From contig RECY01000028.1 in NCBI GenBank assembly GCA_007693785.1, forward strand, positions 62,001 to 126,000: a DNA stretch of 64,000 nucleotides, read 5' to 3'. Every line of letters starts with the position of its first letter. Within the stretch, counting starts at the first letter, position 1. Positions 23,775-35,077 of this stretch are shown in pieces. The DNA comes from Phycisphaerales bacterium (GTDB taxonomy: Bacteria; Planctomycetota; Phycisphaerae; Phycisphaerales; UBA1924). Made by a program: the position numbers and the translations under genes. The notes beneath the pieces are model-generated. The model was not told the origin of the DNA and searched no databases. It worked only from the letters and a program-made list of their open reading frames with translations.

Positions 23775-24271
23775 TGAGGTGGCCTCCCTTGTGAAACTGT
23801 CTCGCGGGCGCACCGGCTCCACCGGTGCGGCACGGACAGCGTCCTCCCTGACTCCTCCGGTCTCTATGACACCGGGAAATCACTCTCCGGTCAAGCACGA
23901 ATCGGAAAACAGATCAGACTCGTGTGGTCCGGCTTCGCTCGTGCCTGCCAAGGGTATACCCTAGGCAGGGGGGGTCGCGCCCGCATTTCGACGCTGGATG
24001 TGCGCCCGATGCGAGTATGACGGGAAGATGAACGCCACAAGGCCTCGACGTGTTCATCGTTGAGCCTCGGATCTTGCATCCGGTGGCGGATCGGATGGTT
24101 TATCGGGGTTCACTTGACACCGCGGGCTCGGATCCGGGAGGCTATCGCCCCCGCCGGGAGGAGGTTGCTCCGGGCGGTGTTCCCCGCGGCCCGTTCTGGG
24201 GCGTTCTTGTCGGGCGGGGTGACAGGTCCGTGCGTGGTCTTGGAAACGGGATGGTTGGGAAGGAGCCGCCG
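23775..24271. promoter_or_regulatory. Long divergent control region with a near-perfect palindrome
   Basis: This 497-nt divergent spacer holds no convincing ORF. On the minus strand a sigma70-like promoter for the 70-residue ORF can be read: -35 TTGACC (23894-23889), 17-nt spacer, -10 TGTCAT (23871-23866). At 23945-23968 a 24-nt inverted repeat has half-site CTGCCAAGGGTA and centre GGGTATACCC, with one mismatched pair, which looks like a transcription-factor operator. On the plus side AAGGAG (24260-24265) precedes GTG 24272. TTGACA at 24114-24119 has no matching -10. Confidence 0.5.
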
Positions 24272-26920
24272 GTGCGGGAACGGATGCAGCGTTGGCGTCG
24301 GGGGGCGTCTGGAGCGGTTGTGCGGATTTGGGCGGTTTCGGCGGTCTTGCTGCTGTCGCCCTCGGCGGCGATCGGGCAACACGGGGACGAGGGCGCTCTC
24401 GCGCGACTTGGTCCCGGCGAGGACCGGGCGGATCTGTTTGAGTGGGCGCGTCCGTTTGACGCGGACGCCTCGATCCCGATCCCGGCGTCGTTCTTCGGGC
24501 GCGAGACGGGCTCGGTCTTCACGCGGTACGAGGAGTTGGTCGCGTATTTCCGGGCGCTGGCCGAGGCTTCGCCGAGGGTGACGCTGACGCCCTACGGGCA
24601 CTCGCACCAGCGTCGCGAGTTATTTATCCTGACGATCTCCAGCGAGGCCAACCTCGCGGACCTGGACGGGATCCTGGACCGCAACCGTGCGCTCACCCGC
24701 GGCTCGGAGCGCCCGTTGAGCGGCACGCTGGAGCGGAACCCGGCGATCTCGTGGCTGAGTTTCGGGGTGCACGGGAACGAGCCGTCGGTTTATGAGACGG
24801 CGATGGAGGTCGCGTACACGCTCGCGGCGAGCCGGCACCCGGAGATCGGGTCGATCCTGAACAACTCGGTGGTCGTGATCGATCCGGCGCTCAACCCGGA
24901 CGGGTGGATGCGGTACGTCAACTGGTACGAGAACCAGGTCGGTCGGGAGGCGGATGCGAACCCGGATTCGAACGAGCACTGGGAGCCGTGGCCGGGCGGG
25001 CGGACGAATCACTATTTGTTTGATTTGAACCGGGACTGGATCTGGCTGACGCAGCCGGAGAGCCGTTCGCGTTTGCAGGTGTACCGCCGGTATATGCCTC
25101 ACCTGCACATCGATTATCACGAGATGGGGTACACGAGCCCGTACTTTTTTGGCGAGGGCGACCAGCCGTACAACGCGAACATCCCGGCATCGACGCGGGC
25201 GTGGATCAAAAAGGTGGGCGAGGCGAACGCCGAGGCGTTCGATCGGGAGGGGCTGATCTACGCGACGCGGGAGCGGTTTGACTACATGTACCCGGGGTAC
25301 GGGAAGGTGCTGCCGGTGTACCACGGGGCGGTGGGGCTGCTGACGGAAAAGGGCGGCCACTCGCGGGCGGGTCTGGCGATCGAGTTCAACGAGCACGAGG
25401 TGCTGACGCTGCGGCGCCGGGCGTACTGGCACTATGTCACGGCGATGAGCTCGCTGGAGATGGTGGCGCGGGAGCGGCGGGGGATGCTGGAGCGGTTTCA
25501 TGATTTTTTCCGCTCGACGCACGAGCTGGCGCGCGAGTCGCCGATGTCGTTTGTGATCCCGGCGGAGACGGACCCGGCGTTGCTGGCGGTGATCCACGAT
25601 CTGTGCGTGTCGCACGGGATCCGCATCGACCGCCTGACGCGGGACACGGAAGTCGAGGGAGTCCGGTACGACGGGGAGACGACGGCGTTCCCGGTGGAGA
25701 TGCGGGCAGGCTCGTGGGTCGTGCGCACGGATCAGGACATGGGGCGGCTGGCGCGGGTGTTCTTCGAGCCCGATCCGGAACTGGTCGAGAAGCAGACGTA
25801 CGACATCACGTCGTGGTCGCTCCCGGCGGCATTGGGTATCGACGCGGTCGCGACGCGGGAGGCGTTCGCGGCGGGCACGGAGCCGCTGGGCGAGTGGCGA
25901 GCGTCGGAGCCGCGGGTCACGGGTGAGGGCTCGGTGGCGTTGATCGTGGATTCGGCGCAGCACCGGTTCCCCGCAGCCGTCGGCGTCGCGGTCAAGCACG
26001 AGGCCTTCGCGCGGCGTTCGGGTGAGGCGATCGAGCTTGATGGCAAGCGTTTTGCGCGCGGGAGCCTGATCATCCATGCGCTGCGGAACCGGCACGTGGA
26101 CACGGACGCGCTCGTGCGCGACCTGCTCGCGAGCGGGAACAGCGTGCACCGGGCGAGCACGGGGATGCCGAGCGAGGGGCCGGCGCTCGGGAACAACGCG
26201 AGCGGACGTCTGGGCAACGCGCGGGTGGCGCTCCTGCGCGGATCGCCGATCAACGCGAACTCGTTCGGGCATCACTGGCACATGCTGGATGTGGCGTACC
26301 CGGTGCCGCACTCGGTGCTCGCGGTCGATCGCCTTGGTCGGGCGGACCTGTCTCGGTTTGGGGTGGTTGTGCTGCCGAGCGGGGGCGGTTTGAGCGGTGA
26401 CGCGCGGTCGGCGATCGAGTCGTTCGTGCGCGATGGGGGCGTGCTGGTCGCAACGGGTCGGAGCGGGCACTGGGCGTCGCGCGAGTTGCTCGGGCTGGAG
26501 GCGAAGCGTCGGGATCGGGACGACAGCCGCCCGAAGCTTTCGGATTTGACCTACGAAGAGCGGACCGGGCGATCGGACGAGGACCGCGTGCCGGGCGCAG
26601 GCGTGCGGATGCTGCTGGATACCACGCACCCGATGACGGCTGGGCTGCCGGGCTCGCTGACGATGCTGAAGACCGATGCGAACCCGTTGCCGGTGAGCGA
26701 CACGGGGTTTGTGATCGCGTCGTACGCGGGTCGGCCGCGGGTCGGCGGGTGGATCAGCGAGCGGAACATCGCGCACATCCGCGACGAGCCTTCGGTGACG
26801 GCTCACCGGCTCGGTCGCGGGTGGGTGATCGCGTTTGCGGAGGATCCGACGATGCGCGGGTTCCAGCACGGGCCGATGCGGCTGTTGTTGAACGCGATCG
26901 TGTTCGGGCCGGGGATGTAA
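24272..26920 (+). CDS. Secreted M14 family zinc carboxypeptidase with C-terminal GATase-like domain
   Basis: An 882-residue secreted protein. GTG 24272 is chosen for the ideal Shine-Dalgarno site AAGGAG with a 6-nt spacer; a signal peptide follows (residues about 17-36). The M14 domain spans about 80-400 with all key residues: HxxE zinc motif H167-G-N-E170, substrate-binding DLNRDW at 251-256, third zinc ligand H283 in DYHEMG, and a candidate catalytic Glu (E359 in LLTEKGG). The C-terminal 200 residues resemble a class I glutamine-amidotransferase-like fold (VVVLPSGGGL...VRDGGVLVATG) without an obvious catalytic Cys. It probably removes C-terminal residues from peptides outside the cytoplasm. 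It is first of three M14-type genes in a row. Confidence 0.85.
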   Translation: MRERMQRWRRGASGAVVRIWAVSAVLLLSPSAAIGQHGDEGALARLGPGEDRADLFEWARPFDADASIPIPASFFGRETGSVFTRYEELVAYFRALAEASPRVTLTPYGHSHQRRELFILTISSEANLADLDGILDRNRALTRGSERPLSGTLERNPAISWLSFGVHGNEPSVYETAMEVAYTLAASRHPEIGSILNNSVVVIDPALNPDGWMRYVNWYENQVGREADANPDSNEHWEPWPGGRTNHYLFDLNRDWIWLTQPESRSRLQVYRRYMPHLHIDYHEMGYTSPYFFGEGDQPYNANIPASTRAWIKKVGEANAEAFDREGLIYATRERFDYMYPGYGKVLPVYHGAVGLLTEKGGHSRAGLAIEFNEHEVLTLRRRAYWHYVTAMSSLEMVARERRGMLERFHDFFRSTHELARESPMSFVIPAETDPALLAVIHDLCVSHGIRIDRLTRDTEVEGVRYDGETTAFPVEMRAGSWVVRTDQDMGRLARVFFEPDPELVEKQTYDITSWSLPAALGIDAVATREAFAAGTEPLGEWRASEPRVTGEGSVALIVDSAQHRFPAAVGVAVKHEAFARRSGEAIELDGKRFARGSLIIHALRNRHVDTDALVRDLLASGNSVHRASTGMPSEGPALGNNASGRLGNARVALLRGSPINANSFGHHWHMLDVAYPVPHSVLAVDRLGRADLSRFGVVVLPSGGGLSGDARSAIESFVRDGGVLVATGRSGHWASRELLGLEAKRRDRDDSRPKLSDLTYEERTGRSDEDRVPGAGVRMLLDTTHPMTAGLPGSLTMLKTDANPLPVSDTGFVIASYAGRPRVGGWISERNIAHIRDEPSVTAHRLGRGWVIAFAEDPTMRGFQHGPMRLLLNAIVFGPGM

Positions 26921-26953
26921 CGGATCGGGCTGAGGGTGGTGCGAGGAGGCGGC

Positions 26954-28960
26954 ATGCGAAGGTTGTGGATCAGCGCGGCGTTTCTGGTTTGCGCGAGCGG
27001 GGCTTCGGCGGACTGGCGAGACGCGGGCGCGCCCGGGGTCGCGACGCGAGAACTGGCGCGGACGCCCGAGGGGCGCTCGGTGGTCGTGACGCGGATTGCC
27101 GCGGCGGACGCGGAGCACCCGGACCGCCAGCCGGCGGTGCTGGTGATCGCGGGGATCGACGCCCGCCACGCGATCGGTCGGGAGGCGGCGGGCTCGCTCG
27201 TGCGCACGATGTCGGAAGGTGAGGCGCTCGCGGGTCGCACGCTGTACGTCGTGGAGGACCTGAACCCGGACGGGAGCGCACGCTTTGCGAAGTTTGGTCG
27301 CGACGGGCTCCCGACGGCGGACACGGGGCGCGCGCCGGACGAGACGCCGCGGGACGCGGACCGGGACCGGCGCTTCGCCGAGGACGGCGGGGACGACCTG
27401 AACGACGACGGCATGATCACGCTGATGCGTCTGCGCCCGGTGATGGGCTACGACCTCGCGCCGACGCATGTGATCGACGCTGAGGACCCGCGCGTGATGC
27501 GCGAGCGGGGCCCGGGCGAGGCCGCGACGCACGTGGTCATGATCGAGGGCACGGATAACGACGGGGACGGTCTGTTCAACGAGGATGGGTACGGCGGGAC
27601 CGCGGGCGGGGGGATCGACCTCGACATGCACTTCCCGATCGAGTGGCCCGAGCACGCCGACGGGGCGGGGTGGGCGCCGCTGACGCGCCCGGAGGCGCGC
27701 GGGCTGGTGGACTGGATGCTGACGCGGGACAACATCGTCGCGGTGGTGGTCTACGGCGAGCGGGACAACCTGTGGCAGACGCCGGCGACGAACCGGTTTG
27801 ATGTGACGCGGCGGGTGCCGCTGGGGATCGAGGCGGGGGACAAGGCGGCGTACGACGCGGTCGGCGAGCGCTACCGCGAGATCACGGGCGTGCGAGGCTT
27901 CAGCGGGTGGTCGATCGACGGCTCGGCGCGGGGCGTCGAGGGCAGCCTGATGCTCTGGACGTACGCGGATTTCGGGGCGTTGACGTTCGCGACGCCGGTG
28001 TACGTGCGCCCGGACCTGGTGCGTCGCGAGCCCGCGCGCGGGGAGGCGGAACGCGATGAGGCGGCTGATGGCGAGCGGACGGGTGCTTCGGAGCGGTCGG
28101 CGGCGGATGATGCGCAGGACGAGCCCCGGGTCGTGGAGATCGGCGGGTACCGCGTGGAGATGACGCCCGAGGGCGTGCGCGCGGCGATGGCGCGTCTGGA
28201 GTCGGCGGACGCCGAGGAGCAGACGCGCGTCATGGCGGCGTTCCAGGCGCTCCCGAGCGAGGTGCGTTCGCAGATGACGGCCTTGGCGCAGCAGGAGGAC
28301 GGCGAGGCGGCCCCGCCGGCAGCCGCACCCCTCGCGGGCGAGGGTGAGTCACGCGGTCGACAGAACGCGGGCGCGCCCGCTGGCGGCGGCTCGGGCGAGA
28401 GCGCGTGGGCGAAGTGGCTCGCGGTGGCCGACGAGCAGGGACGCGGCTTCGTCGAGTGGCGTTCGTTCGACCACCCGCAGCTCGGCGAGGTCGAGATCGG
28501 CGGCTTCGAGCCCGGCTTCATGCAGAACCCGCCGGAGGGGATGCGCGAAGCCCTGTTTGAGCAGCAAGCATCGCTCGTCAGCGAGGTGCTCGATCGGCTG
28601 CCGAGCCTAAACGTCGCGGACGCATCGGCGGAACGGATCGGCTCCGGGCTTGTCCGCGTGCGTGTGCGCCTGGTGAACGAAGGCCGCTTCGCGACGCGAT
28701 CGGCGATCGCGAGCAAGTCCCGGAGGCTCGCGCCGACGGTGCTCGCGATCGAGACCGAGCCGGAGCGCGTCGTGAGCGGCTCGCGCGTGGTCCGGTTCGA
28801 GTCGGTCGAGCCCGGCGGGCACGCGCAGGCGTCGTGGCTGGTGCGACAGGACGGGCCGGTCCGCGTCGAGCTGCGCGACCCGGTGTTCGGCTGGATGGAT
28901 ATCGAGATCGACCCCGCCAGCGGACGCTGGTCGGCGACCCCGAAGGAGGCGCGGCGATGA
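26954..28960 (+). CDS. Secreted M14-like pseudo-peptidase (catalytic residues replaced)
   Basis: A 668-residue protein with a signal peptide (1-19) and an M14-type fold, but none of the catalytic residues are kept. The HGNE zinc site is D69-A-R-H72 ('AGIDARHAIGRE'), the DLNRNF substrate motif is DLDMHF (222-227), and the third zinc His is Gly268 (VVVYGERDN). EF-hand-like acidic loops occur at about 146-153 and 200-212. A low-complexity Ala/Glu/Gly linker (about 350-480) leads to a C-terminal beta domain (VRVRVRLVNEGRFATRS). It may bind peptides or calcium, or act as a partner of the flanking enzymes. AGGAGG precedes ATG 26954, and the stop overlaps the next start (ATGA). Confidence 0.75.
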   Translation: MRRLWISAAFLVCASGASADWRDAGAPGVATRELARTPEGRSVVVTRIAAADAEHPDRQPAVLVIAGIDARHAIGREAAGSLVRTMSEGEALAGRTLYVVEDLNPDGSARFAKFGRDGLPTADTGRAPDETPRDADRDRRFAEDGGDDLNDDGMITLMRLRPVMGYDLAPTHVIDAEDPRVMRERGPGEAATHVVMIEGTDNDGDGLFNEDGYGGTAGGGIDLDMHFPIEWPEHADGAGWAPLTRPEARGLVDWMLTRDNIVAVVVYGERDNLWQTPATNRFDVTRRVPLGIEAGDKAAYDAVGERYREITGVRGFSGWSIDGSARGVEGSLMLWTYADFGALTFATPVYVRPDLVRREPARGEAERDEAADGERTGASERSAADDAQDEPRVVEIGGYRVEMTPEGVRAAMARLESADAEEQTRVMAAFQALPSEVRSQMTALAQQEDGEAAPPAAAPLAGEGESRGRQNAGAPAGGGSGESAWAKWLAVADEQGRGFVEWRSFDHPQLGEVEIGGFEPGFMQNPPEGMREALFEQQASLVSEVLDRLPSLNVADASAERIGSGLVRVRVRLVNEGRFATRSAIASKSRRLAPTVLAIETEPERVVSGSRVVRFESVEPGGHAQASWLVRQDGPVRVELRDPVFGWMDIEIDPASGRWSATPKEARR

Positions 28961-30738
28961 ACAGGCGGCATCAGATCAGGACGCGTTCGTGGATCGTCGC
29001 GGGTGCGCTGCTGCTCGGGGTGTGCGCGTTGGCGCCGCAGCCGGCGGCGCGGGCGCAGGCGCTCGCCTCGGCAAGCCCGGAGCGGAAGGTCGAGATCCCG
29101 TTTAACCGGTATTACACGGGTGCGGAGCTTGAGGCGTGGATGGCGAAGATCGCCGAGGCGCACCCGGAGCTGGTGGAGCTGCGCTCGCTGGGTGAGAGCC
29201 GGAACGGCAGGCCGCTGACGCTGGCGATCGTGACGGGCCCGGGGGAGCTGGATCACAGCGAGAAGCCGGCGATCTGGATCGACGGGAGCATCCACGGCAA
29301 CGAGCTTCAGGCGTCGGAGGTCGTGCTGTACACGATGTGGTATCTGACCGAGGCGCACGGGCAGATCCCGGCGATCACGACGCTGCTGGAGGACTACACG
29401 TTTTATCTGATGCCGCTGGTGAACCCGGACGGGCGGGCGTATTGGTTCGAGGAGCCGGCGACCCCGCACACGGGCAGGCAGAGCATCCGCCCGCGCGACC
29501 TCGATCGCGACGGGTTGGTCGATGAAGACCCGCTGGACGACCTCGACGGCGACGGCTCGATCACGCAGATGTGGCGTGAGGACCCCAACGGGCAGTGGGA
29601 GCGCGACAAGCACGACCCGCGCCGGTTCTACCGCGTCGAAGAGGGGCAGCGCGGCTCGTGGTCGTACCTCGGGCAGGAAGGGTTGGACCGTGACGGCGAC
29701 GGGCGGGCGAACGAGGACGGGCCGTTCGGCGACGACATGAACCGGGCTTGGCCCGCGGGCTGGAAGCCCGACTATGTGCAGCGCGGCGCCGGGCTCTACC
29801 CGCTCGAAGCCCCCGAGGCTCGCGTTATCGCCGAGTTCATGATCGCGCACCCGAATATCGCGACGGCGCAGGCGTACCACAACACCGGGGGCATGATCCT
29901 CCGCGGGCCCGGGGCGCCGCACCGCGGCGAGTTCTACCCGCGCGAGGACCTTCGGGTCTACGACGAGATGGGGCGCATCGGCGAGCAGATGCTGCCGCAT
30001 TACAACTACTGGATCATCCATGAGGACCTATACATCGTGCACGGCGGGTTCGTGAACTGGGCGGCCGAGGGGCTCGGTGCGTTCGCGTTCACCAACGAGC
30101 TGATGACCTTCCGCCACTATTTCTGGAGCGAGACCCGCCCGGACGAGCGGGCGATGTGGCTCTTCCGCGACCGCCTGGAGTTCGGGCTTTCGTTTAAAGA
30201 GCACGAGTGGTTCGATCACCCGCAGCACGGGCGCGTGCTGATCGGCGGGCTGAACAAGTGGTCGAGCCGCCTGACACCGACGTTCATGCTCGAAGAGGAG
30301 GCCCACCGGAACGCGGCGTTCACGTTCTACCACGCGGATCAGATGCCGAAGGTGGATTTCGATCGTGTCGCGACGCGATCGCTGGGTGACGGGCTGTGGG
30401 AAGTGACGGCGGAGCTGCGAAACGAGAAGCTGATCCCGACGCGTTCGGCGCTCCAGCAGAACCGCGGGATCGGGCTGCCGGACCTGGTCGAGTGCGAGCC
30501 TGCGAGCGGCGGCGTGCTCGCGGGCGGCGTGCTGGCCCACTGGCAGGATCGTCCGCTGGCGCGCGAGCAGAGGCGCGAGCCCGGGCGGCTGCTGCTGGAC
30601 GAAGGCGTGCCGAGCCGCGGCGTGCGCACGGTGCGATTCCTCGTCGAGGGTCGCGAGGGCGACGAGCTGACGCTCCGGTTCACGAGCGAGCGAGCCGTGG
30701 ATCGCGAGCGGACGCTTCGCTTGCGCGCGGGCGAGTGA
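28957..30738 (+). CDS. Secreted M14 family zinc carboxypeptidase
   Basis: A 593-residue secreted protein whose ATG overlaps the preceding stop (ATGA). A signal peptide covers residues 1-34. The M14 domain has an intact zinc motif H113-G-N-E116, NRAW substrate motif with N262/R263, and third zinc ligand H308 in QAYHNTGG. Three acidic calcium-loop-like insertions (DLDRDGLVDED 181-191, DLDGDGS 195-201, DRDGDGRANEDG 244-255) suggest calcium stabilisation. A C-terminal beta-sandwich with Arg/Leu-rich strands (about 480-593) may bind a partner or surface. It is closest in layout to the inactive protein encoded before it. Confidence 0.85.
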   Translation: MNRRHQIRTRSWIVAGALLLGVCALAPQPAARAQALASASPERKVEIPFNRYYTGAELEAWMAKIAEAHPELVELRSLGESRNGRPLTLAIVTGPGELDHSEKPAIWIDGSIHGNELQASEVVLYTMWYLTEAHGQIPAITTLLEDYTFYLMPLVNPDGRAYWFEEPATPHTGRQSIRPRDLDRDGLVDEDPLDDLDGDGSITQMWREDPNGQWERDKHDPRRFYRVEEGQRGSWSYLGQEGLDRDGDGRANEDGPFGDDMNRAWPAGWKPDYVQRGAGLYPLEAPEARVIAEFMIAHPNIATAQAYHNTGGMILRGPGAPHRGEFYPREDLRVYDEMGRIGEQMLPHYNYWIIHEDLYIVHGGFVNWAAEGLGAFAFTNELMTFRHYFWSETRPDERAMWLFRDRLEFGLSFKEHEWFDHPQHGRVLIGGLNKWSSRLTPTFMLEEEAHRNAAFTFYHADQMPKVDFDRVATRSLGDGLWEVTAELRNEKLIPTRSALQQNRGIGLPDLVECEPASGGVLAGGVLAHWQDRPLAREQRREPGRLLLDEGVPSRGVRTVRFLVEGREGDELTLRFTSERAVDRERTLRLRAGE

Positions 30739-30767: not shown

Positions 30768-32825
30768 TTATCGGGTTTCGTGGTGCATCGCGAGTTCGCC
30801 CCATGCGTCGTAGCGCGTGGTCTGGCGTCGCGCAACGGCGTGACGGGCAGCGGCCGTCTTCTGCGCCTGCCACCAGAGCGCGCGGGCGGGCAGATGGCGC
30901 AGGGCGGGCGGGAGCGTGCGCACGATGGCGGTCAGCGGCGGGATCGCGAAGCGCTCGATGACGCAGTCGGTGGCGGCGACGTACGCCTCGGCGTGCCCCG
31001 GGTCGCCCTGGCGCCCGGCGCGGCCGAAGAGCTGGCGATCGACGCGGGCCTCGTCGTGGCGCTCGGTGGCGATGACGAAGAGCCCGCCGAGGGCGCGGGT
31101 TTCGTCGGTGAGCTTGATGTCGGTGCCGCGACCGGCCATGTTGGTCGCAACGGTGACCGCGCCCGCCTCGCCGGCTTTTTCGATGATCTCGGCTTCCTCG
31201 GTCTCGCGGTGGGCGTTGAGCACGCGGCACGGGGTGCCGCGGTCTTGCAAGAGGGATGCGAGCGCCTCGCTCGTTTCGACGCTGCGTGTGCCGATGAGCA
31301 CGGGGCGTCGCGCCGCGTGGATCTCGGCCGCCCGGTCGGCGACGGCTTCCAGCTTGGCCCGCTCGCTGGTGAACACGCGGTCGGGCCCGTGCGTGCGCGA
31401 GATCGGCTTGTGCGTCGGCACGCGCACGACCGGTGTGCGATACTCGCGCCAGAGCTCGTGGGCGACTTCTTTGGCGGTGCCGGTCATGCCGGCGAGGAAG
31501 GGGTAGCGCTGGAAGAAACGCTGGTAGCTGAGGCGCGCGACGGTGCGTCGGTCCGCGGTGATCTCGAGGCGTTCTTTCGCTTCGACCGCCTGGTGAACGC
31601 CGAGCTGCCACTGACGCCCTTCGAGCAGGCGTCCGGTGGATCGATCCACGATCACGATCTTGCCTTCGCGCACGACATAGTCGTCGTCGCGTGTGTAGAG
31701 CTCCACGGCTTCGACGGCTCGCACCGCCAGCTCCTCACGCCGGCGCGGGCCGGACCAGAACGGGGGCAGACGCTCGGCGAGGCGCGTGAGGCGCTCGCGC
31801 CCGGCGTCGGTCAGGTGGCACCGGCGGCGTCGGGTGTCGACGTCGTAATCGCGGTTGCGCTCGAGCGTGCCCGCGATCTCGGCGGCGAGGTTGTAGTGCT
31901 CGGCGGCGGGGGATTCGGCGTCCTCGCCGAGGATCGCGGGCGTGACGGCTTCGTCGATCAGGATGCTGTCGGCCTCGTCCACGATCGCCGCGAAGTGCCC
32001 GCGCTGCACCACGAGCTTGCTCCACCCCGCGACCCCGCCGTCGATCGAGGCTTCGCCCGTGAGCTGGTCGAGCACGAGCGTGCCGGTGGTGGCGCGCAGC
32101 GGCGTGTGCGTGCGGTCGCGGAGGAGGTCGAAGATGAACTGCTTTTCGGCGCCGTAGGTGACGCCGCGGGCGTACATGCGGGCGCGCTGGTCGCGTTCCT
32201 GTTTGTCGCGGAGAGCGCCGACGGTGACGCCGAGGAGGCGGTAGGCGGGTTCGGTGGTGATCGCGTCGCGGTCGGCGAGGTAGTCGTTGACGGTCATGAC
32301 GTGGACGCCGCGACCGCGCCAGGCGAGCCAGGCGGCGGGGAGGATCGCGGTGACGGTCTTGCCCTCGCCGGTCGCCATCTCGGCGACGCACCCTCGGGCC
32401 ATCGCGAGCGCGCCCATGACCTGCTCGGGGTGGAGCTTGAAGCCGAGCGTGCGTCGAACGGTCTCGCGCCCGAGGGCGAAGGCCTCGTCGAGGGCCGCCG
32501 GATCGCGACGGTGGAGGATCGCGTGTTCGCGGGCGCGTTCGACGGCGTCGGCGAAGGCGGCGATGGAGAACGCTTCGAGCTCGTCGCTGCGCCGGCAGAT
32601 GCGGGCGGCGCGGTCGCGGTCGCCGGTGTGGGCGGCGCGCCAACGCGCGATCGACCCGCGAACCCATTCGCCGAAGAGGTCCGCGCCCTCGGGCGGCCGC
32701 GGCTTGGGGGGCTGCTTTGAGAGGCTCGGCCACAGGCGCTCGGGGCTCGGCGTCGGCGCGTTCGACTCGCCCGCTCGGCGCGGGGCGGGGAAGGCGGGCG
32801 TCGGGCTCGCGGGGGCGGCGGTCAT
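30768..32825 (-). CDS. Truncated SecA paralogue (SecA2-like translocase ATPase)
   Basis: A 685-residue SecA-type motor, about 200 residues shorter than housekeeping SecA. Present: a Pro-rich N-terminus (1-45), NBD1 with Walker A ATGEGKT (151-157) and DEAD box at 283-286 (IVDEADSILIDEA), a reduced preprotein cross-linking domain, 'AGMTGTAKEV', and NBD2 with 'TNMAGRGTDIKL' and 'GRAGRQGDPG'. Absent: the helical wing, most of the scaffold and the C-terminal zinc finger. The usual 'YGTNNEFGFDYLRD' motif is altered to YGAEKQFIFDLLRD. ATG 32825 overlaps the stop of the M50-HlyD gene (ATGA). Such accessory SecAs usually export a narrow set of substrates; here the neighbours suggest a dedicated export role. 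Confidence 0.88.
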   Translation of the reverse strand: MTAAPASPTPAFPAPRRAGESNAPTPSPERLWPSLSKQPPKPRPPEGADLFGEWVRGSIARWRAAHTGDRDRAARICRRSDELEAFSIAAFADAVERAREHAILHRRDPAALDEAFALGRETVRRTLGFKLHPEQVMGALAMARGCVAEMATGEGKTVTAILPAAWLAWRGRGVHVMTVNDYLADRDAITTEPAYRLLGVTVGALRDKQERDQRARMYARGVTYGAEKQFIFDLLRDRTHTPLRATTGTLVLDQLTGEASIDGGVAGWSKLVVQRGHFAAIVDEADSILIDEAVTPAILGEDAESPAAEHYNLAAEIAGTLERNRDYDVDTRRRRCHLTDAGRERLTRLAERLPPFWSGPRRREELAVRAVEAVELYTRDDDYVVREGKIVIVDRSTGRLLEGRQWQLGVHQAVEAKERLEITADRRTVARLSYQRFFQRYPFLAGMTGTAKEVAHELWREYRTPVVRVPTHKPISRTHGPDRVFTSERAKLEAVADRAAEIHAARRPVLIGTRSVETSEALASLLQDRGTPCRVLNAHRETEEAEIIEKAGEAGAVTVATNMAGRGTDIKLTDETRALGGLFVIATERHDEARVDRQLFGRAGRQGDPGHAEAYVAATDCVIERFAIPPLTAIVRTLPPALRHLPARALWWQAQKTAAARHAVARRQTTRYDAWGELAMHHETR

Positions 32826-35077
32826 TCGCCGGCCTGCCGGGACTCGAGGTATTGCATCGCGCGGCGCCACCACTGCGCCGCGAGCGGGGCGCGCGGGAGG
32901 TCGAGGCGCACGCGGGCGCGCTGCCCGATGCCGACGCCGGCGTTGGCGGTCTCCGGCTCGAGCTCGATCAGGAACTGCGGGGTGAGGGTGCGGCGCTGGT
33001 CGGGATCGTTCGGGTCGAGGCGGACGTCGCCGCCGACGGCCGTCGCGAGCGCGGGGTTCTCCAGGTCGCGCGAGCCCACGGGCGCGGTGCGGAGCAGGCG
33101 TGCGGGCACGACGCGTCCGGCGTCGCCGCGGACGCGATAGGCGACGCGCCGGAGGTTGCTCGCGGGTTCGGCGGGTGTTGTGGTGGCGCTGGCGGGGTGG
33201 AGCTCGACGGGGCGTGTGGTGCCGAAGGCGTAGGCGTGGTCGCGGTCGGCGAGGAAGGCTCGGACGATGGGGTCGTCGGTGGTGGCGACGCGCCCGAGCT
33301 TGACGCCGCGGTCGGCGTAGAGGCCGACGAGATCGGGCGGGTTTGTGCCGGGCTCGGCGATGAATCGTCCGGCGACGGGGGCGCGAACGGTGAGCGCGTC
33401 GGCTCGTTCTTCGAGGCGTTCGAGGGTGGCCTGGTAGACATGCAGACGCCCGCGGGCGATCTGCTCGGCGGCGGGGCTGTTGATCGCGGCGGCGTCGAGG
33501 TTGGCGAGCGCGCCCATGACGCCGGCCTCCGCGGTGCGCACGTCGGCGCGGAGTTCCGGGCTGCGCAGCTCGAACAGCGGCTCGCCGAGCGCGACCGCCT
33601 GTCCGGGGGCGACGAGAACGCGATCGATGTAGCCGCTTTCCGGCACGCGCACGGGGGCGTCGCGCCGGGCTTCGACGGCGCCGGCGGCGTAGACCGCGGC
33701 CGGGGCGGGCACGAGCCCGAGCGCGACCACGCCGATCGCGAGCGCCCCCAGGCTGACGCCGACCGCGCGGGCCCGGTGCCCGCTGAGCTTGGGCGAGCCG
33801 GCGAGATAGCCGATGAGCTTGAGGATCGGCCAGACGCCCATGATCGCGATCGCGACGACGGCGAGCGCGATGCCGATGGTGAGATACTGCGTGCTGATGA
33901 GCAGGACGATCGCGAAGAGGATGAAGATGCGGTAGGGGAAGCTGAGGGCGGCGAAGACGCCCAGGGCCCACGCCTCGCCGCGGGAGCGGACGGCGGGCGG
34001 TCGCTCGCGGACGCCGAAGCCGAGGCGTTCAAAGAAGAACTGCCAGAGCTCCTTGGATCGCTGCTGGAGGTTGGGCACGCCGAGCAGATCGCTGAGGATG
34101 TAGTACCCGTCGTAGCGGAGCAGCGGGTTGAGGTTGAACAGCAGCGTGGTCGCGCTGGCGACGAGCATGACGTTGAAGCAGAGTGTGCGGAGCAGGGCCT
34201 GCTCGGCGGGGGCGTTGGCCCAGATGACGGCGGCGACCGCGGCGATGAAGATCTCGACCAGGATGCCCGCGCCCGAGACGAGCACGCGGGCCGAGAGGCT
34301 GCGGAAGCGCCACGCCGCCGACGCGTCGCAGTACGGGAGCGGGAGGATCAGCGCGATCAGGATGACGCCGATCTCGGTGCACCGCCCGCCCATCGCCTTG
34401 CACGCGGCGGCGTGCCCGAGCTCGTGCAGCCCGCGGAGGACGAGGAACGTGATCGTGATGAGCGCGAGGGAGGCGGGCTCGAGGATGTTGCTGAGCGGGT
34501 CGCCCATGCGGTCGATGTTGGTCAGGACGCTGAACAGCCCCGCCGCCAGCACGAGCAGGAACACGATGCCCATCGGCTTGCTGAAGACCGCCCGGCAGAG
34601 CCAGGCGGTGCGGTGGAGCACGGGCTCGGGGTTGATGAGCGGGATGGTGAAGAAGAACCACTTGCCGGTGCGTCGTTGGATGCGGCTCTTGCGTGCGCGG
34701 GTGCGTCGCTCGTGGACCATCTCGGGGCTGAGAGGGAGCTCGCCGAGGAGCAGGCCGAAGGACTGGAGCTTGGCGAGCAGGTCGACGCATTCTTTTTGGG
34801 TGGGGGCGTCGTCGCCGAGGCGTGCGCAGGCGGTCTGCCAGGCGTCATCGACGGTGCGCCGCCCGTCGAGCATCGCGGCGAAGAGATAAGCGGCCCCGGA
34901 GAGGCGGTAGAACTTGGCGGTCGCGGGGTCATCGACCACGTAGTCGGTCTTGGGCCCAAATCGCTGCGGGGTGATGGTGGCGTGCGGGCTGAGGCGCGGG
35001 CGTGTGGGCGCGACGCGATACCAGACGTCGCTGAACGTCGAGGCCGGGTCGTCTCGGAGGATGCCGGAGCGGATCAT
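32822..35077 (-). CDS. PqqD-like / M50 metalloprotease / HlyD adaptor fusion protein
   Basis: A 751-residue membrane protein with three parts. Residues about 25-112 look like a PqqD-type winged helix (RRE-like: 'YRLSGAAYLFAAMLDGRRTVDDAW'), the fold that binds leader peptides in RiPP pathways. Residues about 160-440 are a multi-pass M50 site-2-type metalloprotease with zinc motif H218-E-L-G-H222 and N317-P...D323-G. Residues about 470-740 are a HlyD-type periplasmic adaptor with a lipoyl/barrel-sandwich half-motif (VRVPESGYIDRVLVAPGQAV) and coiled-coil. KEGG-type names for such proteins are 'putative peptide zinc metalloprotease'. No Shine-Dalgarno site; the start follows an AC-rich, unstructured leader. 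It overlaps secA-like by 4 nt. Confidence 0.82.
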   Translation of the reverse strand: MIRSGILRDDPASTFSDVWYRVAPTRPRLSPHATITPQRFGPKTDYVVDDPATAKFYRLSGAAYLFAAMLDGRRTVDDAWQTACARLGDDAPTQKECVDLLAKLQSFGLLLGELPLSPEMVHERRTRARKSRIQRRTGKWFFFTIPLINPEPVLHRTAWLCRAVFSKPMGIVFLLVLAAGLFSVLTNIDRMGDPLSNILEPASLALITITFLVLRGLHELGHAAACKAMGGRCTEIGVILIALILPLPYCDASAAWRFRSLSARVLVSGAGILVEIFIAAVAAVIWANAPAEQALLRTLCFNVMLVASATTLLFNLNPLLRYDGYYILSDLLGVPNLQQRSKELWQFFFERLGFGVRERPPAVRSRGEAWALGVFAALSFPYRIFILFAIVLLISTQYLTIGIALAVVAIAIMGVWPILKLIGYLAGSPKLSGHRARAVGVSLGALAIGVVALGLVPAPAAVYAAGAVEARRDAPVRVPESGYIDRVLVAPGQAVALGEPLFELRSPELRADVRTAEAGVMGALANLDAAAINSPAAEQIARGRLHVYQATLERLEERADALTVRAPVAGRFIAEPGTNPPDLVGLYADRGVKLGRVATTDDPIVRAFLADRDHAYAFGTTRPVELHPASATTTPAEPASNLRRVAYRVRGDAGRVVPARLLRTAPVGSRDLENPALATAVGGDVRLDPNDPDQRRTLTPQFLIELEPETANAGVGIGQRARVRLDLPRAPLAAQWWRRAMQYLESRQAGE

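Follow-up and report, generated by a model that had tools for sequence, protein, structure and literature searches.

A conserved M14 pseudopeptidase gene directly upstream of an active M14 carboxypeptidase gene, and its putative role as a non-catalytic partner

The window analysed here, a 64,000-nucleotide stretch of DNA from a Phycisphaerales bacterium (contig RECY01000028.1), carries a gene, B, whose product is related in fold to M14 carboxypeptidases and is followed immediately by a gene, C, for an intact M14 enzyme (Table 1). B lost every catalytic residue once, anciently, within a conserved gene pair. Judged from its sequence, B would be an M14 pseudopeptidase, that is, a non-peptidase homologue in which the M14 fold is kept, the catalytic residues are gone and the gene is maintained. 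Because at least six phyla keep B directly upstream of an intact C, B probably serves C as a dedicated non-catalytic partner and is not a decaying gene. We think it rather likely that B and C together make up an exported M14 zinc carboxypeptidase of two subunits, B the non-catalytic and C the catalytic one, a reading supported by the M14 fold of B, its retained loops and C-terminal domain, the pairing and co-occurrence of the two genes and their matching trees.

Table 1 Features of the B-C locus, numbered from the first nucleotide of the window
Feature	Position	Strand	Remarks
Gene A, another M14 carboxypeptidase	24050..26920	+	neighbour only, outside the conserved unit
Ribosome-binding site of B, AGGAGG	26944..26949	+	4 nt 5' of ATG
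Pseudo-M14 gene B	26954..28960	+	668 aa, predicted exported, putative non-catalytic partner
Signal-peptide-like N terminus of B (MRRLWISAAFLVCASGASA)	26954..27010	+	from sequence
D69-A-R-H72 replacing zinc motif HxxE	27158..27169	+	
First Asp-rich (Ca-like) loop of B, DADRDRRFAEDGGDDLNDDGMITLM	27353..27427	+	acidic residues retained as in C
Second Asp-rich (Ca-like) loop of B, EGTDNDGDGLFNED	27545..27586	+	
D224-M225 replacing N144-R145	27623..27628	+	
G268 replacing third zinc ligand H196	27755..27757	+	
D271, conserved residue new to B	27764..27766	+	D/N in 108/109 B; Gly in C
P348 replacing general base E270	27995..27997	+	
C-terminal domain common to B and C, conserved	28403..28957	+	H507-P508, G516-G517, N575
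Ribosome-binding site of C, AAGGAGG	28943..28949	+	within 3' end of B
Active M14 partner gene C	28957..30738	+	593 aa, predicted exported; H113, E116, N262, R263, H308, E381 intact

Loss of the active site in B

Alignment of B with C places D69 at the position of H69, H72 at E72, D224-M225 at N144-R145, G268 at H196 and P348 at E270; the B of the window lacks the zinc ligands, the general base E270 and the substrate pair N144-R145 expected of an active M14 enzyme. The alignment confirms two readings of the original prediction, which was made from this DNA alone: that the zinc motif HxxE has become D-A-R-H and that the third zinc histidine has become glycine. Among 109 B homologues, chiefly from Planctomycetota, Aminicenantota and Bacteroidota, H69 is present in one sequence and E72, H196 and E270 in none, not one homologue retains more than one of these four residues, and 101 carry Gly or Ser where the third ligand would be. 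The 95 C homologues hold H69 in 94, E72 in 94, N144-R145 in 93, H196 in 90 and E270 in 89; the exceptions are gaps, one masked row and one misaligned row, and wherever the sequence covers these columns C keeps all four of H69/E72/H196/E270 (at least 89/95). The sequences also agree with the prediction that the first and third of the three adjacent M14 proteins in the window, A and C, retain HxxE, Asn-Arg, His and Glu. The predicted loss of the Asn-Arg pair holds for the B of the window but is not a trait of the family, in which 57 of the 109 homologues have the Asn, 57 have the Arg and 33 have the two together.

D69 and H72 had been proposed as swapped metal ligands, and B might then be an enzyme in which the metal site is rearranged, or one that has acquired a new activity, perhaps with D271 serving as a third ligand. 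D69, H72 and D271 do occur together in the window B and in many Phycisphaerales homologues, and 26 of 30 order-level homologues have H72. Across the family, however, position 72 is His in 66 of 109 and has lost it in 43, position 69 may be D, E, S, Q, N, H or T, and position 271 is Asn in 27, while the general base and the third zinc ligand are absent. The swapped-ligand site was rejected because these residues are not conserved, and an enzymatic B of this kind seems highly improbable. Tyr267, which had been named together with D69 and H72, directly precedes the lost His196 and does not correspond to the catalytic Tyr248; the family has F, Y or L in this column. The conserved positions that B has gained for itself are an acidic residue at 69 (94/109), D or N at 271 (108/109) and P520 (98%).

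The remodelled pocket could instead hold a ligand, with B an independent protein that binds peptides, cell wall or metal and serves the pathway of C without contacting it. Such a role would suit the acidic residue found at position 69 in 94 of the 109 homologues and the D or N at position 271 in all but one, and animal M14 pseudopeptidases act extracellularly, AEBP1 and CPXM with collagen for example (PMC11266112). Yet B is tied to this one clade of C and not to the several further active M14 subfamilies that these genomes encode, and we consider a free-standing binder distinctly unlikely.

Fold, domains and expression signals

The AlphaFold models of B and C have mean pLDDT values of 84.5 and 94.2, respectively. 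The B model aligns with carboxypeptidase T over 269 residues (Z 25.5, rmsd 3.1 Å) and the C model matches carboxypeptidase A. Searched against solved structures, the single B sequence gave no match and the B alignment profile matched carboxypeptidase T. The Pfam M14 model (PF00246, cut-off 21.6 bits) scores B at 41.9 bits over residues 32-143 only and C at 149 bits, and it matches 72/72 B members. By profile match and funnelin-type fold B belongs to MEROPS M14/Pfam PF00246 through fold and homology. Pfam and fold alike assign B and C to M14; they do not have the HxxEH motif of M16B or the M16 fold.

The alignment shows that the acidic residues of the Asp-rich loops are retained in 93-100% of B homologues, and likewise in C; these are D136, D138, E143, D144, D148 and D152, and further E198, D201, D203, D205, E210 and D211. 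Since the loops follow a DxDxDG pattern, they are predicted to bind calcium in both proteins. Hydrophobic N termini are found in 104/109 B and 94/95 C. The coordinates bear out that B has its own AGGAGG site and a stop that overlaps the third gene: B starts with ATG at 26954 and stops with TGA at 28958-28960, and the ATG of C (28957-28959) overlaps this stop as ATGA. A promoter and terminator scan found no promoter signal above background.

Conservation of the B-C pair

B lies upstream of C on the same strand in 93/93 pairs, and the two are adjacent homologues, one with and one without an active site, conserved across taxa. The commonest junction is the 4-nt ATGA overlap: for 90 pairs, with gaps that rest on estimated start choices, the gap is exactly -4 nt in 44 and within ±20 nt in 68. 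A search of 60 relatives and the window's own genome found B homologues in 33/61 genomes, and the same 33 carry C (Fisher 5e-18); of 198 genomes of the class, 23 have B and these same 23 have C (Fisher 1.5e-30), the p values being nominal because the genomes are related. None of the 61 relatives or 198 class members has B or C alone.

A scan with one genome per species yielded 80 B loci from at least six phyla (Planctomycetota, Aminicenantota, Bacteroidota, Acidobacteriota, Gemmatimonadota and Verrucomicrobiota); a Gammaproteobacteria-labelled MAG among the B loci may be mis-binned. Cultured carriers include Siphonobacter sp. BAB-5405, Maribellus sp. CM-23 and Aquiflexum gelatinilyticum. In Bacteroidota 18/18 B, from 17 genomes, adjoin a C, and phylum-wide the pair was found in 36 of 41 positive genomes. 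The five single-match Planctomycetota genomes were rejected as unpaired carriers, since their match is instead a third, different M14 subfamily with HxxE intact. At L052 (JADZBE010000023.1), the only such case with enough flank, B has no C within 6 kb downstream. A complete Aminicenantes chromosome (CP070750; genome G208, home of locus L059) holds three separate B-C pairs, at about 1.79, 3.08 and 3.22 Mb, and also several solo relatives. The plasmid collection gave no match.

The order of the two genes would also suit a folding helper or latency factor, in which B binds nascent or secreted C, stabilises or inhibits it on the way to its site of action and is then released, so that it would not be a permanent subunit. 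B is translated just before C, whose start usually overlaps the stop of B, both carry predicted export signals and neither occurs alone in the class sample. However, no propeptide-like segment was recognised in B, and B, a full-length homologue of 668 aa whose Asp-rich loops are conserved, would be large for an inhibitor or propeptide. On balance we judge a transient role of this sort unlikely.

Evolution of the pair

In the tree a branch with support of 100/99 sets B apart from all other sequences, and one with 100/100 does so for C. Rooting with a distant M14 from the window's own genome put the root inside B, which we read as a long-branch effect, and the analysis was redone without that sequence. 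Solo M14 relatives with intact catalytic residues fall between B and C, so the catalytic loss in B is derived. The B and C subtrees have 22/26 splits in common although their branching crosses phylum borders, which suggests that the two genes were transferred together between lineages. Their distance matrices correlate with r 0.76, a value that 0/999 permutations reached, none exceeding 0.09. B has diverged about 1.5 times faster than C, so that strong sequence conservation does not reveal any interface that the two may share. M14 proteins that are related to C and occur without B score 312-508 bits against the C profile, in which canonical C exceeds 530, and belong to other intact subfamilies. 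Loci L123, L125-L128, L138-L150 and L157 hold further M14 subfamilies that fall between B and C in the tree; they share the Asp-rich loops and have HxxE intact but no dead partner.

Could B simply be a decaying duplicate? It evolves faster than C, and two broken copies were found: L102 and L151 (G330:C74), the latter with one apparently frameshifted B followed by two tandem C genes. These could be assembly errors or occasional losses. Against a pseudogene, nearly all homologues are full-length open frames in several phyla, structural residues are invariant, pairing with C is strict and the starts overlap. Decay is rejected by this conservation across homologues, and we give it practically no weight. 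Random loss at the catalytic positions, which would have pointed to decay, is not what the alignment of homologues reveals: the loss is complete, ancient and derived once. Such non-random loss, along with strict co-occurrence with an active partner, supports the earlier suggestion that B is kept and expressed on purpose.

Proposed two-subunit enzyme and related systems

In the arrangement that we favour, B as non-catalytic and C as catalytic subunit, the two proteins would be made together, exported to one compartment and bind each other. B would probably support the fold of C or shape its substrate funnel, as inactive alpha does for beta in mitochondrial processing peptidase (MPP), and by default for the M14 family the substrate would be the C terminus of an exported peptide or protein. 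The association is proposed by analogy with MPP, bacterial M16B pairs and Csd1/Csd2. Co-inheritance of adjacent genes also fits two proteins in one pathway without contact, and the B without C at L052 and the broken B at L102 and L151 count against the subunit arrangement. An activator or substrate-binding subunit, as originally predicted, remains the best class of explanation for B. We put at about even the chances of the stronger proposal, an obligate two-subunit bacterial M14 carboxypeptidase: every enzyme of this clade would be made with a dead twin that it needs in order to fold, to act or to select its substrate, and the two genes would spread between phyla as a unit. If this is true, B-C would be an M14 equivalent of alpha/beta-MPP.

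Pairs of an inactive and an active homologue are known from other metallopeptidase families. Alpha/beta MPP and the bacterial M16B pairs Sph2681/Sph2682 and Bcn-gP1/Bcn-gP2 are built in this way, the bacterial ones as heterodimers from two-gene operons (PMC11266112; PMC8960859). B-C resembles them in joining a dead and a live member of a single family, but the M16B fold with HxxEH is unrelated to M14, and the inactive M16B subunit supplies known substrate-binding elements (a glycine-rich loop and an R/Y pair). In Helicobacter pylori, Csd1/Csd2 (M23B) includes an inactive homologue whose set of metal ligands is incomplete and which contains no metal, and the heterodimer has been crystallised (PMC5053510). 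Here too an exported bacterial metallopeptidase, as predicted for B-C, is joined by an inactive homologue; the LytM fold and the peptidoglycan substrate nevertheless belong to another family and another substrate class. Carboxypeptidase T of Thermoactinomyces vulgaris and the pancreatic carboxypeptidases A/B have the fold of B and C but are single active enzymes without a dead partner. With about 305-325 residues, these enzymes have no room for the Asp-rich inserts and the C-terminal domain that B and C carry.

Within M14, a 2024 review of metallopeptidase pseudoenzymes describes only animal and yeast cases and no prokaryotic one (PMC11266112). The eukaryotic pseudopeptidases AEBP1, CPXM1, CPXM2, CPD domain III and Ecm14 have lost catalytic or substrate residues and are exported (PMC11266112, PMC7706225). 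B shares with them an M14 fold with lost residues and predicted export; unlike B, they keep at least H69 and most also E72. Going by the review and general background, none of them is known to have an active M14 twin encoded beside it. NCBIfam has no named family for B or C and gave 5 stray weak matches among B members. The open-access literature that we searched contains no description of the B-C pair, which within that literature appears to be undescribed. M14 pseudopeptidases in the searchable literature are eukaryotic and their molecular function is mostly unclear; a prokaryotic dead/active pair in several phyla with cultured carriers makes the role of a dead peptidase for its live twin directly testable. 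The broad M14 model used in automatic annotation would label the dead subunit B a carboxypeptidase.

Neighbouring genes

B had been described as sandwiched between two intact M14 carboxypeptidases, A and C. Gene A homologues occur in 14/61 relatives, on other contigs or in other places and unlinked to the pair, so the sandwich is incidental; a three-gene unit A-B-C was rejected, and the conserved unit is B with the downstream C only. Gene A scores 55 bits against Pfam M14, and its C-terminal end has a weak Glyco_hydro_42M (GATase-like) match. Its true start is probably ATG 24284, because that ATG precedes a signal peptide, and the listed GTG start (24050) would be too early. Convergent with C, a SecA paralogue lies on the - strand at 30771-33971 as a 1067-aa frame with SecA_DEAD, PP_bind and P-loop domains.

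No conserved third neighbour of the pair was found among the B-C loci, the largest clusters being antisense shadow ORFs of B and C. Small clades share lineage-specific neighbours. At the Aminicenantes-like loci L049, L054, L057, L062, L107 and L113, a large VWKTTNSG-type repeat protein, by eye sortilin/BNR-like, adjoins the pair.
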